Positions 50,012 to 58,392 of a stretch of 64,000 nt of DNA are shown piece by piece (within the stretch, counting starts at the first letter, position 1; each line of letters starts with the position of its first letter). The DNA lies in NCBI RefSeq assembly GCF_039542905.1, contig NZ_BAABIS010000001.1, forward strand, positions 7,192,001 to 7,256,000. The letters run 5' to 3'. The notes beneath the pieces were generated by a model. That model made no database searches, was not told the DNA's origin, and saw nothing but the letters and a program-made list of their open reading frames with translations. Source of the stretch: Kitasatospora terrestris. GTDB taxonomy: Bacteria > Actinomycetota > Actinomycetes > Streptomycetales > Streptomycetaceae. The position numbers were made by a program, and so were the translations under genes.

Positions 50012-52201
50012 TCAGCCGATGGCGATGTCGTCGACCAGGAAGGTGGTCGCCAGGTAGGCGTCCTCGGTACCGGCGAACTCGAGCTGCACCGTCCGGCCCT
50101 TGTAGGCGGACAGGTCGACGGTCTTCTGCACGTACGAGGTGCCGGCGTTGGCGTTGGAGTACGTCGCCAGGGTGGTGCCGTTGACGTTGACCTTGAGGGT
50201 GTCGTAGACGGTGGTGCCGGTCTCCTGGGTGGTGACCTTCAGCCAGAAGGTGAGCTTGGGGGTGCCGGTGGCGGGCACGGCGATGCCGCTCTGGGAGAGG
50301 GACTCGACGGCGGAGGTGCCGTAGCCCATCATCCAGGCGTACCAGGAGCCGCCGTGGGCCGCTTGCAGGGTGGAGTTGGTGATGTCGTTGTCGCTCTGCG
50401 TCCAGCCGGTGGTGCCCTGCTCGAAGCCGCCGTTGACCAGGGCGTTCCCGGTCGGGGCCGGGGTGGAGGTCGCGGTCGGGCTAGGGGTCGGGCTCGGGGC
50501 CGGGGTCGAGCTGGAGGTGGGGCTCGGGCTCGGGGTCCCGGTGCCGGGGTCGGGCAGGGCGGTGCCGACGCTGACCGCCGCCCACGCCTTGGAGACCAGG
50601 TACCGCTCCTGGGAGTTGGTGCCGTACAGGTCGGCGGCCGCCTGCAGGGTGGCCGTGCGGGCGCCGGAGTAGTTGGTGGTGGAGGTCATGTAGGCGCTCA
50701 GCGCCCGGTACCAGACGGCGGCGGCCTTGTCCTTGCCGATGCCGGCGAAGGTGTCGTTGTTGCAGGTGGTGCCGTTGTGCGAGCGGCCGCCGATGGTCTT
50801 CGCCCCGGTGCCCTCGGACGCCAGGTAGAAGAAGTGGTTGCCGATGCCGGAGGAGAGGTGGACGTCCACCGAGCCGGCGCTGGAGCTGTAGCAGGACAAC
50901 GAGGAGCCGTCGAGCGAGGGGTTGTCCATCCGGCGCATGTAGCCGCCGGACATGTTGAGCTTCTCGCCGATGTAGTAGTCGCCCGGGTCTCCGGCGTTGT
51001 TGGCGTAGAACTCCACCATGGTGCCGAAGATGTCCGAGGTCGCCTCGTTGAGGCCGCCGGACTCGCCCGAGTAGTTCAGGTTCGCGGTGGCGGCGGTGAC
51101 GCCGTGGCTCATCTCGTGGCCGGCCACGTCGAGCGCGGTGACGGGGGTGTTGCTGTTCTGCGAGGAGCCGTCGCCGAAGAACATGCAGAAGCAGTCGTCG
51201 TCGTAGAACGCGTTCAGCAGGCTGGTGTCGACGTGCACGTACGCGGGCGCGCCGCGGCCGTCGTTGCGGATGCCGGAGCGGTTGAAGGTGTCCTTGTAGA
51301 AGTCCCAGGTCTTCGCCAGGCCGTAGGAGGCGTCGACGGCGGCGCTCTCGCGGCTCGACGTGGTGCCGTTGCCCCAGGAGTTGGTGGACTTGGAGAACGT
51401 CCGGGCGTTCTGCTTCGGGTTCGACTGCGAGCTGTTGTACGAGTCGTAGACGATGGTGCCGCCGTGCGCGGCATCGGTCAGGGTGTAGCTGCTGCCGGAC
51501 TGGGTGGTCTCGATGGAGACCTGGCCGACGGTGGTGCCGTTGCCGGTCCCGGTGACGCCCTGGTGCAGTTCGTACTGGTCCAGCGGCGCGCCGCTGGCCG
51601 CGTCGACGATCACGGCCTCGCGCGAGGCGGCGCCGGCATCGCCCTCGCCGGTGACGGTGGAGCGGTACGCCAGCACCGGAACCTTGCCGACCGCGTACAC
51701 CACCAGGGCGCTGCTGTCCGCGGCGTCCGGCTTGGCGTTCTTGACGTGCTTGGCGTGCCGGACGGCCGCGGCCGAGGCGTCGGCCGCGCTGAGCTTCGGC
51801 GTGGTGCCGACGACCTTGAGCGCGCCCCGGTGGGCCTGGTCGGAGCCGGTGGCCCTGCCGTTCGCGTCGTAGTGGACGACCAGGTCGCCGCCGATGACGG
51901 GCAGGCCCCGGAAGGTGCGGTCGTAGCGCACGTGACGGGCACCGTCGGCGTCCACCAGGACGTCCTTCACCGCCAGCCTCTCGTCGGCGCCGAAGCCGAG
52001 CGCGCGGGCCGTCGCGGCGGCCTCCCGGTCGGCCGTGCGCATCGCCTCGCCACGGACCTCGGCCGCCATCGCCCGGAACCCGGCGCCGGGTCGGGCGGAG
52101 GAGCCGCGGGCCGCCGCGGTGGACTGGGTCGCCACCACGGTCACGGTGCCGAGGGCGAGGGCGGCCGCGACGGCGGCGGCCAGGGCGTTCTTGCGGGACA
52201 T
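50012..52201 (-). CDS. secreted M4-family (thermolysin-like) zinc metallopeptidase with C-terminal beta-sandwich domain
   Basis: This is predicted to degrade proteins outside the cell. The 729 residues show a signal peptide (1-30), an FTP/PepSY propeptide (about 35-215) and an M4 catalytic domain (about 225-540). Zinc ligands are His362 and His366 in GHEMSHG, with Glu363 as catalytic base, and Glu386 in GGLNEATSD; the proton-donor region GGRSHNGTTCNND follows. A Pro/Ser/Thr linker (about 545-575, PSPSPTSSSTPAP) leads to a galactose-binding-like domain (about 578-729, NGGFEQGTTGW). The start has GGGAGG upstream. It is divergent from the LuxR regulator gene. Confidence 0.93.
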   Translation of the reverse strand: MSRKNALAAAVAAALALGTVTVVATQSTAAARGSSARPGAGFRAMAAEVRGEAMRTADREAAATARALGFGADERLAVKDVLVDADGARHVRYDRTFRGLPVIGGDLVVHYDANGRATGSDQAHRGALKVVGTTPKLSAADASAAAVRHAKHVKNAKPDAADSSALVVYAVGKVPVLAYRSTVTGEGDAGAASREAVIVDAASGAPLDQYELHQGVTGTGNGTTVGQVSIETTQSGSSYTLTDAAHGGTIVYDSYNSSQSNPKQNARTFSKSTNSWGNGTTSSRESAAVDASYGLAKTWDFYKDTFNRSGIRNDGRGAPAYVHVDTSLLNAFYDDDCFCMFFGDGSSQNSNTPVTALDVAGHEMSHGVTAATANLNYSGESGGLNEATSDIFGTMVEFYANNAGDPGDYYIGEKLNMSGGYMRRMDNPSLDGSSLSCYSSSAGSVDVHLSSGIGNHFFYLASEGTGAKTIGGRSHNGTTCNNDTFAGIGKDKAAAVWYRALSAYMTSTTNYSGARTATLQAAADLYGTNSQERYLVSKAWAAVSVGTALPDPGTGTPSPSPTSSSTPAPSPTPSPTATSTPAPTGNALVNGGFEQGTTGWTQSDNDITNSTLQAAHGGSWYAWMMGYGTSAVESLSQSGIAVPATGTPKLTFWLKVTTQETGTTVYDTLKVNVNGTTLATYSNANAGTSYVQKTVDLSAYKGRTVQLEFAGTEDAYLATTFLVDDIAIG

Positions 52202-52352
52202 CGCAATCCTCCCGCCGAGCTGGGGTAGAGGGGGCAGCCGCAGGACGTCGTCGGAGGGGTGGGGGGACGTCCGGCAGCCGGGGACAGCTCGACTGTGGCG
52301 ATGACGTTAGGGAAAGCGGGGGGTGGCCGAAATCAGGGCAACCCCTTGACCT

Positions 52353-52367
52353 GGACCGGAACGGTCC
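52353..52367. promoter_or_regulatory. palindrome GGACCG-N3-CGGTCC before the LuxR gene
   Basis: GGACCGGAACGGTCC is a perfect 6-3-6 repeat beginning two bases after a TTGACC hexamer (52346-52351) and 20 bp before the LuxR start. It is the likely operator of that promoter. Confidence 0.5.
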
Positions 52368-52387
52368 CGAGGGCGCACCATGGCCCG

Positions 52388-55150
52388 ATGCCAGACTCTG
52401 CGACGTGGGTGAGCGTGCTCGACGGGACGGCCGGCGCCGTGCTGCCGGTGGTGCCGGAGGAGGTGGACGGCACCCGCCGCGCGGTGCTGTTCGGGCCGCC
52501 CGGGATCGGGAAAACCACCGCGGCCGGTGTCCTGGCACGGCGGCTCGGCCTGCCCGTCCTGCGGCTGGCCCCGGGCCCGCAGGACACCCGGGTCGCCTAC
52601 GCGGGGCTGCTGGAACTCGCGATGGCCCTCCCGTCGCTGCCGGCCGCGCGGGAACTCGCGGCGGCGCTGGACGAGGCGTCCGGCGAGCCGCGCCCCTCGG
52701 ACCACGCCGGCCCGGCCCTCCGGCTCCGCCGGTTGACCGCCGCACTGCTGCGGGACGCACCGGCCATGACCTTGCTGGTCGACAACGCCCAGTGGCTGGA
52801 CGCGGCCAGCGCGGCCGTCCTCGGCTGGGCCCTGCGCCTGGCCCCGGAGCTTCCCGTCATCGCGGCCGAGCGCACCTGGCGGCCCGGAGCCGGCGGCCAC
52901 TGGTGCGGAGCGGACGCCTGCGCGGTCCGCGTCCCCGCCCTGACGGCCCATCAGGTCGCGGCGCTGCTGTCGCCGTACCGGCCCGCCCCCCGCGAGGTCG
53001 CGAGGATCCACGCCCTCAGCGGCGGGAACCCGGCGCTCGCCCTGGCGCTCGCCGACGCCGCGGGCCCGACCGCCGACCCGGACGGCGGGGACGACCCGGT
53101 CCTTCCACCGACCGCCCGACGACTGGTCGGGGAGTGGCTGGACGAGGTACCGGACCGGGTGCAGGAGCTGCTGACGCTCGCGGCGCTGGACGACCGGCCC
53201 GACGTCGAGCTGCTCACCCGCCTCGCCGGACCGGCAGCCGGGAACCTCCTGGCCGAGGCCGAGGCGGCCGGGCTGCTGGAGATCGGGCAGCGCGGCGGAA
53301 CGCTGCGGTTCACCGCCTCGGCGACCGCCACGGAACTGGCGACCCGGCTGCCGGCCGCCGTCCGCAGGGCCCTGCACGCCCGCCTGGCCGAAGCCAGCCA
53401 CGACAGCGTCAGGCGCGACCGGCACACCGCGCTGGCGGCCGACACCGGCGACCCGCGTACGGCCCGGCACACCGCGCGCGACGCCGCCCGCGCAGCCGGC
53501 CACGCCCGGCTGCGCGGCGAGCACCCGCTGGCGGCCGAACTCTCCCTCCTCGCCGCCGAACGCACCCCGCGCGAGGACACCGGGCTGCTCACCGAACGGG
53601 CCCTGACGGCCGCGCACGACGCCGCCCGGTGCGGCGACCTCCGGCGCGGTCGGGCCGCCGCCCGCCTCGTCCTGGACCACGACAGCAGCCCCGCAGAACG
53701 CGTCGGCGCCCTCCTGATCCTGCTCGACGCCAGCGGACAGCGCCTCGACGGCGCCGACGAACTGTTCGCCGGGGCCGTCCACGAGGCGGCCGGCCGACCC
53801 GACCTGATCGCCCGGATCCTGCTCCGCCGAGCCATCCGGGCCAACATCAACGAAGGCGCCCCCGCCCAGGCCGCCGCCCTGGCCGCCCAGGCAGCCGACC
53901 TCGCCGGGGCCGCCGGGGACACCACCACCGCCGCCCTGGCCCTGACCATGCAGGCGCGCGTCCAACGCATCCTCGGCAGCCCGGACGCCGAGACCACGCT
54001 CGACCGCGCGCTGTCCCTGCCCCGCACCAGCCCCGTCCCCGCCAACGCCGGGCCCGAACACCTCGCCGCCCGCCACGCCCTCTTCGACGACCGCCCGGAC
54101 GACGCCCGAACCGCACTGCTGCCCCTGCTCGTCCAGGCCGAGCGGGCCGGGGACGCCGAGGGCACCGTGGACGTCCTGCGCAGCCTCGCCGAGGTGGAGA
54201 TCCGCGCCGGCCGGTGCGGCCGGGCCCTCGACTACGCCGCCCGAGCCCAGACGCTGACCGACCGGGCCGCTCTCCCGCCCGGGCCGGCCTGCTACACCTC
54301 CGCCCTCGTCGAGGGCACCGCCTCGCGCACCGACCTCGCGCTCGCCCACGCCCGCCGCGGAGCGGACGCCTCCCGGCAGGAGCGCAACCGGGTCTTCCTC
54401 TCCCGCAACCTCTTCGCCCTCGGGCACCTCCTGCTCGTCACCGGACGTCCCAAGGAAGCCCTGGAGGCCCTGGAGGAGGTACGCACCCTGGAGGAACTCC
54501 AGCACGTCCACGACCCGACCGTCCTGCGCTGGCACGCCGACCTTGCCGAAGCCCTCATCGCCCTGGGCCGCTGCGACCAGGCCCACCGCCTGCTGACCGA
54601 CGCCCACCGCACCGCCACCGACCTCGGCCGACACTCCGCGCTGCCCGCGCTCGAACGCGCCCGGGCCCTCCTGGATGCCGCCTGGGGCGACTACGACACG
54701 GCCGCCCACCGCCTCACCGACACGGCCGACCGCCTCCTGCACCTCCCCATCGAACGCGGGCGGACCCTGCTGGCCCTCAGCCACACCGAACGGCGCGGAC
54801 GCCGCCGCGCGAGCGCCCGCGCGGCGGCCCGCAGCGCCGCCGACCTCTTCACCGCCCACGAGGCCCACCCGTGGGCCGAAGCAGCCGCACGAGCCCTCGA
54901 CCGCCTCGACCGCACCCCCGCGGACGGCGCCCCCGGTCCGCGCCTCACCCCCGGCGAACAGCGCTGCGCCCGGCTCGCCGCCGGCGGAGCGAGCAACCGC
55001 GACATCGCCGCGGCCCTCACCGTCAGCGTCAAGACCGTGGAAGCGACCCTGACCCGGGTCTACCGGAAACTCGGCGTCCACTCGCGGGTCCAGCTCGCGC
55101 ACGCCGTTTCCCCGGCATCGGCATCGGCATCGGCCCCGGCGCCCGAGTGA
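52388..55150 (+). CDS. LuxR-family large ATP-binding (LAL/MalT-like) transcriptional regulator
   Basis: This 920-residue activator has an N-terminal AAA/STAND ATPase: Walker A GPPGIGKT at 36-43, a Walker B-like LLVDNAQWLDAASA at about 127-140, and a sensor region. A long Ala/Leu/Arg-rich helical repeat middle (about 330-830, TPR-like) leads to a C-terminal LuxR helix-turn-helix (about 850-910: LTPGEQRCARLAAGGASNRDIAAALTVSVKTVEATLTRVYRKLG). ATG 52388 follows no strong ribosome site; a palindrome lies upstream. Such regulators sense a small effector or sugar. The convergent neighbour encodes the starch-binding amylase-inhibitor protein, and the divergent one the metallopeptidase; which gene it controls is unknown. 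Confidence 0.88.
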   Translation: MPDSATWVSVLDGTAGAVLPVVPEEVDGTRRAVLFGPPGIGKTTAAGVLARRLGLPVLRLAPGPQDTRVAYAGLLELAMALPSLPAARELAAALDEASGEPRPSDHAGPALRLRRLTAALLRDAPAMTLLVDNAQWLDAASAAVLGWALRLAPELPVIAAERTWRPGAGGHWCGADACAVRVPALTAHQVAALLSPYRPAPREVARIHALSGGNPALALALADAAGPTADPDGGDDPVLPPTARRLVGEWLDEVPDRVQELLTLAALDDRPDVELLTRLAGPAAGNLLAEAEAAGLLEIGQRGGTLRFTASATATELATRLPAAVRRALHARLAEASHDSVRRDRHTALAADTGDPRTARHTARDAARAAGHARLRGEHPLAAELSLLAAERTPREDTGLLTERALTAAHDAARCGDLRRGRAAARLVLDHDSSPAERVGALLILLDASGQRLDGADELFAGAVHEAAGRPDLIARILLRRAIRANINEGAPAQAAALAAQAADLAGAAGDTTTAALALTMQARVQRILGSPDAETTLDRALSLPRTSPVPANAGPEHLAARHALFDDRPDDARTALLPLLVQAERAGDAEGTVDVLRSLAEVEIRAGRCGRALDYAARAQTLTDRAALPPGPACYTSALVEGTASRTDLALAHARRGADASRQERNRVFLSRNLFALGHLLLVTGRPKEALEALEEVRTLEELQHVHDPTVLRWHADLAEALIALGRCDQAHRLLTDAHRTATDLGRHSALPALERARALLDAAWGDYDTAAHRLTDTADRLLHLPIERGRTLLALSHTERRGRRRASARAAARSAADLFTAHEAHPWAEAAARALDRLDRTPADGAPGPRLTPGEQRCARLAAGGASNRDIAAALTVSVKTVEATLTRVYRKLGVHSRVQLAHAVSPASASASAPAPE

Positions 55151-55186: not shown

Positions 55187-55804
55187 TCAGCAGAGCCGCA
55201 GCTGCGTCACGTAGTTGCCGTTGGTGCCGTAGCCGGCGAACGTGACCACGTCCCCGGGCTCCGTGTACCGGCAGGGGCTGGACGTGCCGCTGACGTAGGT
55301 GAGTTGTACGGAGTAGGGCTGGGCGCAGGCATTGGTGACGAAGGTGTAGCGCCAGTCACTGGAGTAGCTCAGGCACGGGGGAGCGGTCTCCTGCCAGGTG
55401 TCGGTGAAGGTGGGCGCGCCGGTCGGCGGAGTGACGCCGGTACGGTTGTCGCCGCCCTCCCAGATGACGGTGCCGTCGGGGTTCTTCTTCAGGTACTTGT
55501 ACTGGACGGCCGTGTCGGGCGGCAGTGGGGCCGTGCCGGTCCACAGCGGGTAGGTGCCCGCGTCGGTGCTGAGGGGGACGGCCTTGGCCGGGTCCCACGC
55601 GCCGAGTTCGGCGAGGTCGCCGACGACGAAGAGGCCCTGGCCCCACACGGTGGTGGCGGTGGCCCGGAAGCTGGTGAGGGGGGCGGCGTCCCCGGAGTCG
55701 GCGGCGTGGGAGCGGGCGACGGTGCCGCCGAGTAGGGCCAGGAGCAACGCGGCGAACAGGAGCGCTCGTCCGAGGAGGGCGGCTCGGGCATGGGTCAGGG
55801 TCAT
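55187..55804 (-). CDS. secreted CBM20 starch-binding protein fused to a tendamistat-type alpha-amylase inhibitor domain
   Basis: The 205 residues have a signal peptide (1-35, ending SHAA). A CBM20 (about 45-127) follows: FRATATTVWGQGLFVVGDLAELGAWDP, YKYLKKNPDGTVIWEGGDNR, with both starch-site tryptophans. A C-terminal domain spans about 140-205. In it, Cys144, Cys160, Cys178 and Cys205 are spaced 16, 18 and 27, and Trp-Arg-Tyr (151-153) sits seven residues after the first Cys. Tendamistat has Cys spacing 16, 18, 28 and its inhibitory Trp-Arg-Tyr at the same offset; the neighbouring pattern CAQ...Y...C...PG...G.G also fits. No catalytic domain is present. ATG 55804 follows GAAGGGA. It would bind starch and inhibit animal-type alpha-amylases there. 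Confidence 0.85.
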   Translation of the reverse strand: MTLTHARAALLGRALLFAALLLALLGGTVARSHAADSGDAAPLTSFRATATTVWGQGLFVVGDLAELGAWDPAKAVPLSTDAGTYPLWTGTAPLPPDTAVQYKYLKKNPDGTVIWEGGDNRTGVTPPTGAPTFTDTWQETAPPCLSYSSDWRYTFVTNACAQPYSVQLTYVSGTSSPCRYTEPGDVVTFAGYGTNGNYVTQLRLC

Positions 55805-56343
55805 GAGGGTTCCCTTCAAGAGCACGAGGACGGCGGCACGGGGGCCGCTCTCTGCGCCACATCTCAACATGACTTGGAGCAAAGGGCGGACTCAAGCCGA
55901 CTCATTCGTTCATTTATAGAAGAGAATCGGCCGCAACTTGGGGCGCCTGTCCTGTGCTTCGTTCAATGTTTGAACGATCGAGGAGGGTGCGGCGCGCCCC
56001 CTGTGTGCACGTCGGGCGATCGTGCCCCCGGTTGCGGAGCCGGGCGCGCTTCTTGCGCAAGTTGGCGAAAAATCTTTCAGTCGCGTCGGTGGCCGGACCG
56101 CAGCCGTCACTCGTCGAAGCAGTCGTTGACGATCGTGGGGCCGTCGTCGCTGAACGCCTCGTTGAGCAGGGCCCCGCCCACCGGCGGCCGCCGTTTCGGC
56201 GCGGGCGGTGGTGCGGACGGCTGCAGTCGCCGGGACGGCGCCCGGACCTGCCGGCCGCCGGGCCGACTGGCGTCCGGAGGGGGGCGGCGCACGATGGAGG
56301 GACCAGCGGCCCCGCAGTCGAAGGGGCGATGGAGGTGGTGGTG
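55805..56343. promoter_or_regulatory. 539-bp divergent control region of the amylase-inhibitor and PP2C genes
   Basis: I see no gene here. It is notably AT-richer around 55860-55980. It holds a -10-like TATAAA (55918-55913, minus strand) for the inhibitor gene without a clear -35, a half-site TTCGTTCA at 55905-55912, the 19-bp palindrome at 55959-55977, and an SD-like AAGGGG before the plus-strand gene. Plus-strand frames run through 55954-56343 but lack a ribosome site. Confidence 0.5.
55959..55977. promoter_or_regulatory. 19-bp palindrome TCGTTCAA-N3-TTGAACGA
   Basis: Perfect 8-bp arms around TGT. A half-site (TTCGTTCA) recurs 53 bp away at 55905-55912, next to the -10-like element of the inhibitor gene. 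It is a strong operator candidate with unknown regulator. Confidence 0.65.
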
Positions 56344-58392
56344 ATGGCGCGCCGACTCGGCCCGGCGGATGCCGCGATGGCGGCCGGCGGGCTGCTGGAC
56401 GTCCTGGGGGTGGCCGCCGTCGTCCTCGACGACCACGGCCGCATCACCCTGTGGAGCCCACCCGCCGAGGACCTGTTCGGCTACACCTGCGAGGAGGCCC
56501 TGGGCCGCGAGGCTTCGCGGCTGCTGGTGGAGGAAGGGCGCCGCGCACAGGTGCACCAGGCGTTCGAACAGGTGATGGCCGGCGGGGGCACCTGGGCCGG
56601 GGCGTTCCCCGTCCAGCACAAGGACGGCCGCACCATGCTGGTCGAGTTCCGCAACACCCGCCTGCAAGCCGCCTCCGGTACGTTGTACGCCCTCGGCCTC
56701 GCCTCCCCCCGCGAGACCGTGCGACGCCTGGAACGCGACCTGGCCCTGGCCGCGCGGATCGTCGACCAGGCACCCATCGGACTCGCGGTCCTGGACGAGG
56801 ACCTGCGCTACGTCATGGTCAACCCCGCCCTGGAGAAGATCAACGGCCTGCCCGCCGCCGAACACCGCGGCCGCACCCCGCACGAGGTCCTGCCGCACCT
56901 GGACGTCGGTGCGATCGAGGACCGGATGCGCCAGGTGCTCGCCACCGGCCGGCCGGTGCTCGACGAGTTCGCCGTCGGCCGCGTGCCGCACGACGACCGC
57001 ACCCACGCCTGGAGCTCGTCGTTCTACCGCCTGGAGGACCAGGCCCACCGGGTGATCGGGCTGGCGGTCTCGGTCATCGACATCACGGAACCCTACGAGC
57101 AGTCCGTCGCCGCTGCCCGGGCCCGGCGCCGCCTGTCGCTGATCGCCGACGCCTCCATCCGGGTCGGCACCACCCTCGACCTGCCCACCACCGCCCGCGA
57201 GCTCGCAGAGGTGACCGTGCCGGAAGTGGCCGACATCGCCGCCGTCGACCTGCTCGACGCCGCCCTGCCGGGCGCGACGACCCGCGCGGACGACGGGTCC
57301 GCCCAGTTCCGCGCGATGGCGATCAAAGCCGCTGACAGCACTCCGGCCACCGACGCCGCCGACCCGATCGGCGAGGTCACCCGCTACCACCCGCACCGGT
57401 TGGTCACCCAGGCCGCCGTCGGCGGCCGCCCCGTCCTCGTCCCCCGTGTCACCGCCGCGGACCTGACCCGGATCGCCCGGGACGAGAACGCCGCTCGCCT
57501 CCTCGCCGAAGCCGGCGTCCACTCCTACCTGGCCGTTCCCCTCATCGCCCGCGGCCGGGTCCTCGGCGCCCTCGACCTCAAACGCACCCGGACGCCCGCT
57601 CCCTTCGACCAGGACGACGTCCTGCTCGCGAGTGAACTCGCCGCCCGCGCCGCCGTCGCCATCGACAACGCCCGCTGGTACCAGCACCAGCGCCAGGCCA
57701 CTCTCGCCCTCCAGCGCCACCTGCTGCCGCCCCGGCACGCCCCCGACCCGCCGGGCCTGTCCATCGCCCACCGCTACCAGCCCGCCAGCGCCACCGACGA
57801 GACCGGCGGCGACTGGTTCGACGTCATCCCGGTCGACGGCGGCCGCACCCTGCTGGTCGTCGGCGACGTCATGGGCTCGGGCATCACCGCGGCCGCCACC
57901 ATGGGACAGCTCCGCACCACCATCCGCGCCCTGGCCCGCCTCACCTCGGACCCGGCCGACCTCCTCACCCACCTCGACGCCGTCACCCGCGACCTCGGCG
58001 ACGCCATGGCCACCTCCGTGATCGCCCTCTACGACCCCGCCACGGGCCGCTGCCGCCTCGCCTGCGCCGGCCACCCGCCCCCCGTGCTCGCCCGCCCCGG
58101 CCACGCCCCCCACCCCGTCCGCCTCGACCCGGGCCCGCCGCTCGGCGTCGGCGGCCTGCCCTTCCCGGCCCGTGACCTCACCCTGCGCACCGGCGACGAC
58201 CTCGTCCTCTACACCGACGGCCTCGTCGAAGTCCGTGACCAGGACATCGACCAGCGCCTGCAAACCCTCACCGACCTCCTCGCCGGCCCCCGCCGGCCCC
58301 TGGAGGACACCTGCGACCTTCTCCTCAGCGCTCTTCGCCGCCCCGACAACCAGGACGACGTCGCCCTCCTCATCGCCCGCGCCGTGCCCTGA
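56344..58392 (+). CDS. PAS-PAS-GAF-PP2C (SpoIIE-type) signalling phosphatase
   Basis: The 682 residues are cytoplasmic with two PAS sensor domains (about 10-115 and 125-245), a GAF domain (about 265-430) and a SpoIIE/RsbU-type PP2C phosphatase (about 450-682). The last has TDETGGDWFDVIPV, VVGDVMGSGITAAA, LYTDGLVEVRD and the final QDDVALLIA, carrying all metal-binding aspartates. It would dephosphorylate an anti-anti-sigma factor in response to a sensed signal. Many Streptomyces relatives have a HATPase tail; this one ends right after PP2C. ATG 56344 with GGAGG eight bases ahead is favoured over ATG 56329. Its 3' end overlaps the converging unknown gene by 23 bp. Confidence 0.9.
   Translation: MARRLGPADAAMAAGGLLDVLGVAAVVLDDHGRITLWSPPAEDLFGYTCEEALGREASRLLVEEGRRAQVHQAFEQVMAGGGTWAGAFPVQHKDGRTMLVEFRNTRLQAASGTLYALGLASPRETVRRLERDLALAARIVDQAPIGLAVLDEDLRYVMVNPALEKINGLPAAEHRGRTPHEVLPHLDVGAIEDRMRQVLATGRPVLDEFAVGRVPHDDRTHAWSSSFYRLEDQAHRVIGLAVSVIDITEPYEQSVAAARARRRLSLIADASIRVGTTLDLPTTARELAEVTVPEVADIAAVDLLDAALPGATTRADDGSAQFRAMAIKAADSTPATDAADPIGEVTRYHPHRLVTQAAVGGRPVLVPRVTAADLTRIARDENAARLLAEAGVHSYLAVPLIARGRVLGALDLKRTRTPAPFDQDDVLLASELAARAAVAIDNARWYQHQRQATLALQRHLLPPRHAPDPPGLSIAHRYQPASATDETGGDWFDVIPVDGGRTLLVVGDVMGSGITAAATMGQLRTTIRALARLTSDPADLLTHLDAVTRDLGDAMATSVIALYDPATGRCRLACAGHPPPVLARPGHAPHPVRLDPGPPLGVGGLPFPARDLTLRTGDDLVLYTDGLVEVRDQDIDQRLQTLTDLLAGPRRPLEDTCDLLLSALRRPDNQDDVALLIARAVP

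Follow-up and report, generated by a model that had tools for sequence, protein, structure and literature searches.

Why streptomycetes make tendamistat-type alpha-amylase inhibitors has been called intriguing (in the accessible part of PMC10671682). A gene in the 64,000-nucleotide stretch of Kitasatospora terrestris DNA analyzed here (the window) raises this question in a particular form, namely, what such an inhibitor would do when it is joined to a CBM20 starch-binding domain. In the list of characterized tendamistat-family members in PMC10671682 (same part), the proteins are free-standing and some 75 aa long, whereas the window domain is joined to a CBM20.

A CBM20 domain joined to a tendamistat-type domain

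The fusion gene lies on the minus strand, with its ATG at 55804 and its stop at 55187-55189, as given in the preliminary description (55187-55804); a plus-strand reading of the same interval was ruled out by an internal stop. Judged by eye, the N terminus carries the elements of the signal peptide claimed there, that is, a basic start, a Leu/Ala-rich core, and Ser-His-Ala before the likely cut, and in a model of the whole protein a helix spans residues 7 to 25, within this putative signal peptide. The features are collected in Table 1.

Table 1. Features of the fusion gene, its surroundings, and the tandem-CBM20 proteins (positions in the window unless a contig or locus is named)
Feature	Position	Strand	Basis
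CBM20-inhibitor fusion CDS, 205 aa	55187..55804	-	Translation; TGA stop
Putative Sec signal peptide, residues 1-34	55703..55804	-	By eye; helix 7-25 in model
CBM20 starch-binding domain, residues 45-130	55415..55672	-	Pfam PF00686; CGTase and glucoamylase CBM20 matches
Tendamistat-type alpha-amylase inhibitor domain, residues 139-205	55190..55390	-	Pfam PF01356, phmmer, fold match
Trp151-Arg152-Tyr153, counterpart of the tendamistat reactive triad	55346..55354	-	Translation, alignment
MalR-like operator candidate, palindrome CTTGCGCAAG at 56052-56061 and conserved flank to 56080	56052..56080	-	3 genome copies
LuxR-family regulator with AAA ATPase domain, convergent neighbor	52259..55150	+	Pfam
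PAS/GAF/SpoIIE-type protein, divergent neighbor	56344..58392	+	Pfam; start chosen by eye
Tandem-CBM20 proteins	Host C1:552711-553277; L001-L007, L009-L011, L013, L022		

What had been called a clear CBM20 scored 92.2 bits against Pfam CBM_20 (cutoff, 23.3; E = 1.8e-26; residues 45 to 130), and the C-terminal domain, for which a profile check had been suggested, scored 88.7 bits against A_amylase_inhib (PF01356; cutoff, 25; E = 2.5e-25; profile positions 2 to 68 of 68), both scores being well beyond chance level. An NCBIfam search of the fusion protein gave no match. The fold of the N-terminal domain matches the CBM20 domains of CGTase and glucoamylase, with a VIA Z of 17.8 and an rmsd of 1.8 over 101 aligned residues for 1cyg. 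In an alignment counted by eye, Trp70, Lys103, Trp115, and Asn120 are identical to CGTase residues 616, 651, 662, and 667, a Trp/Lys/Trp/Asn set that we take to be CBM20 binding site 1; W616 is the residue altered in PDB entry 1tcm, titled W616A mutant.

In the C-terminal domain, the four cysteines (144, 160, 178, and 205), their spacings of 16/18/27, and the position of Trp151, seven residues past the first cysteine, are all as first described, and the Trp-Arg-Tyr triad is invariant in a 24-row alignment. With phmmer against the PDB, parvulustat (2ker) was found at E = 1.3e-18 and tendamistat at E = 1.4e-7, the sole further chain matching the C-terminal part up to E = 1 being an scFv at E = 0.23. 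The AlphaFold2 model of the whole protein had a mean pLDDT of 89.3; a fold search with it gave CBM20 chains, and no inhibitor chains among the matches listed. Residues 138 to 205 were therefore modeled separately (mean pLDDT, 90.4), and their only PDB matches at E <= 0.001 were 2ker, 1hoe, and 1bvn_T, with TM-scores of 0.90 to 1hoe and 0.76 to 2ker; the fold alignment with parvulustat shows 55% identity. The structure comparison thus places the domain with parvulustat and tendamistat, as had been proposed, and with no other PDB chain at that threshold. Fold, four cysteines, and Trp-Arg-Tyr loop are common to the window domain and the tendamistat/parvulustat (Z-2685) family, whose members bind pancreatic amylase via Trp18-Arg19-Tyr20, located at the catalytic site in the complex (PMC10671682, part accessible).

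The host genome (8.57 Mb in 2 contigs) was found by profile search to hold one A_amylase_inhib domain, that of the fusion itself, and five CBM20 domains. No GH13 gene was found within the window, Pfam searches of the fusion gene's neighbors revealed no specific link to the fusion, and a sigma-70 scan found no promoter. Beyond the LuxR-type regulator gene lies a gene for a thermolysin-type (M4) protease with propeptide (50012-52201, minus strand).

Recurrence of the fusion and origin of its parts

Searches with PF01356 gave a match in 8 of 70 genomes of the host genus (at E <= 0.001), 62 of 394 of the host family, 68 of 392 of sister genus g10, and 5 of 396 of the phylum. The family list includes the 8 genus genomes and has 18 matching genomes in common with the g10 list, which gives 112 matching genomes in total. 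Beyond the family, a single PF01356 match came from the phylum scan, below the cutoff and with internal stops. Open frames were read in 100 of the 112 genomes; the 12 weak matches left out were those at 35.3 bits or less in G479, G503, G536, G543, G554, G567, G615, G631, G642, G647, and G665, and that of G174 (23.9 bits; L111), which our own inhibitor profile missed.

The survey of genomes that the preliminary description had suggested showed the architecture to be recurrent. The order CBM20-inhibitor occurs in eight genomes (the window genome, G136, G162, G253, G544, G552, G634, and G650) and the order inhibitor-CBM20 in three (G023, G024, and G025); Pfam confirmation was run on three fusion-bearing loci, L082, L086, and L041. 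The reverse-order fusions share with the window protein the same two domains, the host genus, and a related CBM20, and differ in the order. Trp-Arg-Tyr is kept in all 11 fused inhibitors, as is the Trp/Lys/Trp of the CBM20 site, while its Asn is found in 9 of 11 (Asp in L139 and L142). Relatives found by homology search of genome contigs included no fusion (0 of 32). A GH13-type match was flagged in 11 of 84 inhibitor loci longer than 9 kb, several of these flags being the fusion's own CBM20 or weak matches; L140, at 5.9 kb, fell short of the length needed for this count. In none of the six CBM20-inhibitor loci longer than 9 kb was a GH13 gene found.

The closest relatives of the fusion's CBM20 are the secreted tandem-CBM20 proteins, which have a second CBM20 where the fusion has its inhibitor. 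These proteins, found in Streptomyces and Kitasatospora, look secreted and have no catalytic domain. On the CBM20 tree, from which six nonactinobacterial CBM20s, two L120 fragments, and the duplicate L179 were left out (a separate tree was built with all 73 rows), the window domain groups with the second CBM20 of the tandem proteins and the CBM20 of the reverse-order fusions. This group of 17 rows has support of 98/97 and stands apart from the CBM20s of seven g10 fusions. A single clade of all 11 fusions was rejected on this tree (p-AU, 0.0067), while a single clade of the eight CBM20-inhibitor fusions was formally not rejected (p = 0.077). The inhibitor tree, built from 90 of 109 domains after exclusion of 19 without a Trp near the triad position, is poorly resolved and leaves the window domain unplaced; on it, the reverse-order inhibitors form a group with two free ones from the genus (support, 97/87). 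These clade tests and this grouping indicate that the fusion likely arose in at least two events, possibly three.

Several relatives depart from the usual inhibitor. The triad Trp is replaced by Arg in L143, L146, and L149 and by Leu in L141, the domains being otherwise normal; perhaps these proteins have an altered target range. More divergent PF01356 relatives have neither Trp-Arg-Tyr nor the strict upstream motif described below (L043, L044, L087-L089, L108, L112, L150-L152, and L154-L157), L108 carrying two such domains in tandem, and perhaps serve another function. In L081:9850-10620 (G080), a long, stalk-like Thr/Pro/Ala-rich stretch precedes the inhibitor domain. At L003:1909-8576 and L013:490-8576, a free inhibitor, a GH13-CBM20 amylase, and a tandem-CBM20 protein are encoded within 6.7 and 8.1 kb, respectively.

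The preliminary description knew of no described protein of this kind. This stands as far as a description goes, since a literature search, with most subscription journals outside its scope, gave no title or abstract describing the fusion among the matches listed. It does not stand as far as notice goes, since the Methods of a 2020 paper count five CBM-20 proteins with alpha-amylase-inhibitor domains, which were then excluded (PMC7275007, accessible part). The architecture has thus been glimpsed before, yet is undescribed in the literature searched. The same source, in that part, deals with Cgt of Actinoplanes sp. SE50/110, which, like the fusion, is a small, noncatalytic actinomycete CBM20 protein that is secreted (for the fusion, this is predicted) and which, unlike the fusion, has no inhibitor domain. 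Gaim and Scaim of acarbose-type clusters resemble the fusion in placing an inhibitor domain in a starch-related setting; in the accessible sections of PMC13240717, they are described as small peptides and no CBM fusion appears, whereas the window protein is fused to a CBM20.

Operator-like palindromes ahead of starch genes

The operator candidate sits 248 nt upstream of the fusion ATG. Its palindrome, CTTGCGCAAG, contains the CTTGC part of CTTGCAG, the published MalR half-site and core site of S. lividans (PMC5526262, accessible part). The host genome has three copies of CTTGCGCAAG, compared to 20 of a reversed-pattern control, and since the palindrome is rarer than the control, the argument is one of rarity and placement, not abundance. 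With gene starts judged by eye, all three copies lie upstream of genes for the fusion, a secreted tandem-CBM20 protein, and a secreted GH13 amylase. The copy at the tandem-CBM20 gene (L176:10696) is identical in the palindrome and nearly so in the conserved flank, and the third lies 65 nt upstream of the predicted GTG start of a 1092-aa GH13 protein with three CBM25 domains.

The pattern CTTGC-N-GCAAG occurs at five sites in the host genome, three of which lie upstream of starch or maltodextrin genes, namely, malE and the genes of a 527-aa and a 783-aa amylase (malE and malF were named by eye), the remaining two being near-copies of one hairpin. Another five CTTGC/GCAAG sites have a spacer of 2 to 3 bases. 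Near-identical hairpins with CCTTGCGGCAAGG are found at distant sites, L178:4228 and L211:9093, and are possibly a small repeated element.

Across genomes, a strict motif, TTGC(N)GCAA, was scored in the 450 nt that precede the first domain. It was found for 9 of 11 fusions, 36 of 75 free inhibitors with Trp-Arg-Tyr, 3 of 4 relatives with another residue for Trp, and none of the 20 other relatives without the triad, compared to 14 of 2200 shuffled sequences. In 78 loci, 34 occurrences fell in the upstream stretches and 11 in the 1.42 Mb of surrounding DNA. Looser versions are visible at the two fusions without the strict motif. In the reverse-order fusions, the operator-like site is an estimated 35 to 40 nt upstream, nearer than in the window gene, where the site could instead serve the divergent gene.

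Of 21 copies of CTTGCGCAAG in six other genomes, only 9 are near alpha-glucan genes: five accompany fusion, inhibitor, or CBM20 genes, three precede the gene of a CBM25-type amylase, and one stands 15 nt ahead of glgX (read by eye). No alpha-glucan gene was found at the other 12 copies; with this proportion, the ten-base sequence is not enough by itself to define a regulon. In G024 (L236:3394-4720) and G025 (L238:3346-4674), CTTGCGCAAG lies between divergent genes for two similar proteins that were not recognized as starch genes. A further divergent pair, in G145, consists of a free inhibitor gene (L105 9729-10079, plus strand) and a single-CBM20 gene (L105 8822-9262, minus strand) about 470 bp apart, with two intergenic CTTGCGCAAG sites, one of them with a flank much like that in the window. 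By eye, two of the four site positions in the CBM20 of this pair are occupied by Arg and Thr, and its gene lacks an in-frame ATG; the gene may therefore be decaying.

Roles considered for a probable starch-tethered inhibitor

Both domains with their key residues and folds, the recurrence in two orders, and an operator-like site common to starch genes were computed here, and the reading that we consider likely is that of a starch-tethered amylase inhibitor, induced together with the starch-use genes and keeping starch for the producer. We predict a secreted, two-headed protein whose CBM20 head would bind raw starch or long maltodextrins and whose tendamistat head would occupy, with its Trp-Arg-Tyr loop, the active-site cleft of alpha-amylases of the pancreatic/streptomycete type. 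The predicted inhibition would thereby be concentrated at the amylases' workplace, the starch surface. Probably the gene is part of a MalR-type regulon, in which maltodextrins would induce it jointly with secreted amylases, the tandem-CBM20 protein, and the maltodextrin importer. The net effect, and with it the predicted ecological role, would most likely be that starch is kept for the producer because sensitive amylases of rivals, and possibly some of the producer's own, are blocked at the granule.

How far the producer's own enzymes would be targets bears on this reading. The 527-aa and 783-aa amylases match pancreatic amylase over most of the catalytic part, including 1bvn_P, the partner of tendamistat, at 321 and 309 bits, respectively, and the best matches of a 951-aa amylase are the bacterial chains that head the lists of these two (at a cutoff of 1e-60, which stops short of pancreatic chains). 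By these matches, at least two of the producer's amylases are of the pancreatic type, which tendamistat blocks, and for this reason a starch-bound inhibitor that mainly slows these enzymes, so that maltodextrin release is matched to uptake with little leakage, is about as possible as one that, as the preliminary description proposed, denies starch to competitors while the producer's enzymes resist it. The CTTGC-N-GCAAG sites at the genes of both enzymes and at malE fit such a brake, and tendamistat-type inhibitors, for which a regulatory role had been proposed, also bind Streptomyces amylases (a review, PMC10671682, part accessible). Tendamistat homologues were found in 38 of 295 Streptomyces by the authors of PMC13240717 (accessible part), according to whom little is known about how these proteins act on the amylases of prokaryotes. 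Against it, the amylase with the exact ten-base palindrome, that of 1092 aa, is CGTase-like in its best 60 of 198 matches, with no pancreatic or salivary chain among these, and it would be costly to produce an enzyme and its blocker at the same time. As the main role, self-braking seems to us rather unlikely. It fits the data, as does the blocking of rivals, and we slightly favor the latter, given that the identical palindrome stands at the gene of a CGTase-like, not a pancreatic-type, amylase.

Two further roles would dispense with lasting inhibition. The inhibitor domain could merely dock amylases on starch, and the recurrence of the two domains in both orders is what would be expected of such a scaffold; yet the triad is retained in every fusion and in the known complex binds the catalytic site (PMC10671682, part accessible), so that a docked enzyme would be blocked, which makes recruitment highly improbable. 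Alternatively, the inhibitory function might have been lost, leaving a protein that only coats starch in the manner of the tandem-CBM20 or Cgt proteins. The window CBM20 does group with second domains of the tandem proteins, and Cgt, a secreted single CBM20, binds starch and can be lost without an apparent growth phenotype (PMC7275007, accessible part). A full inhibitor profile, four cysteines, an intact triad, and the identity to parvulustat noted above nevertheless argue against such a loss, which we regard as quite improbable.

An inhibitor in a starch-tied and apparently co-regulated form points to the granule surface as the place of action, and the fusion offers a single-gene system for telling the exclusion of competitors from self-throttling. 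A starch-anchored amylase blocker might also be of use where slow digestion of starch is wanted. More tentatively, and with more doubt than confidence, we suggest that streptomycetes and their kin have repeatedly built starch-tethered blockers from their starch-binding and tendamistat modules, in both orders, under the maltodextrin regulator that would also control an insensitive kind of amylase, as a dedicated program of "starch privatisation." If true, this would explain the presence of animal-type amylase inhibitors in these bacteria.
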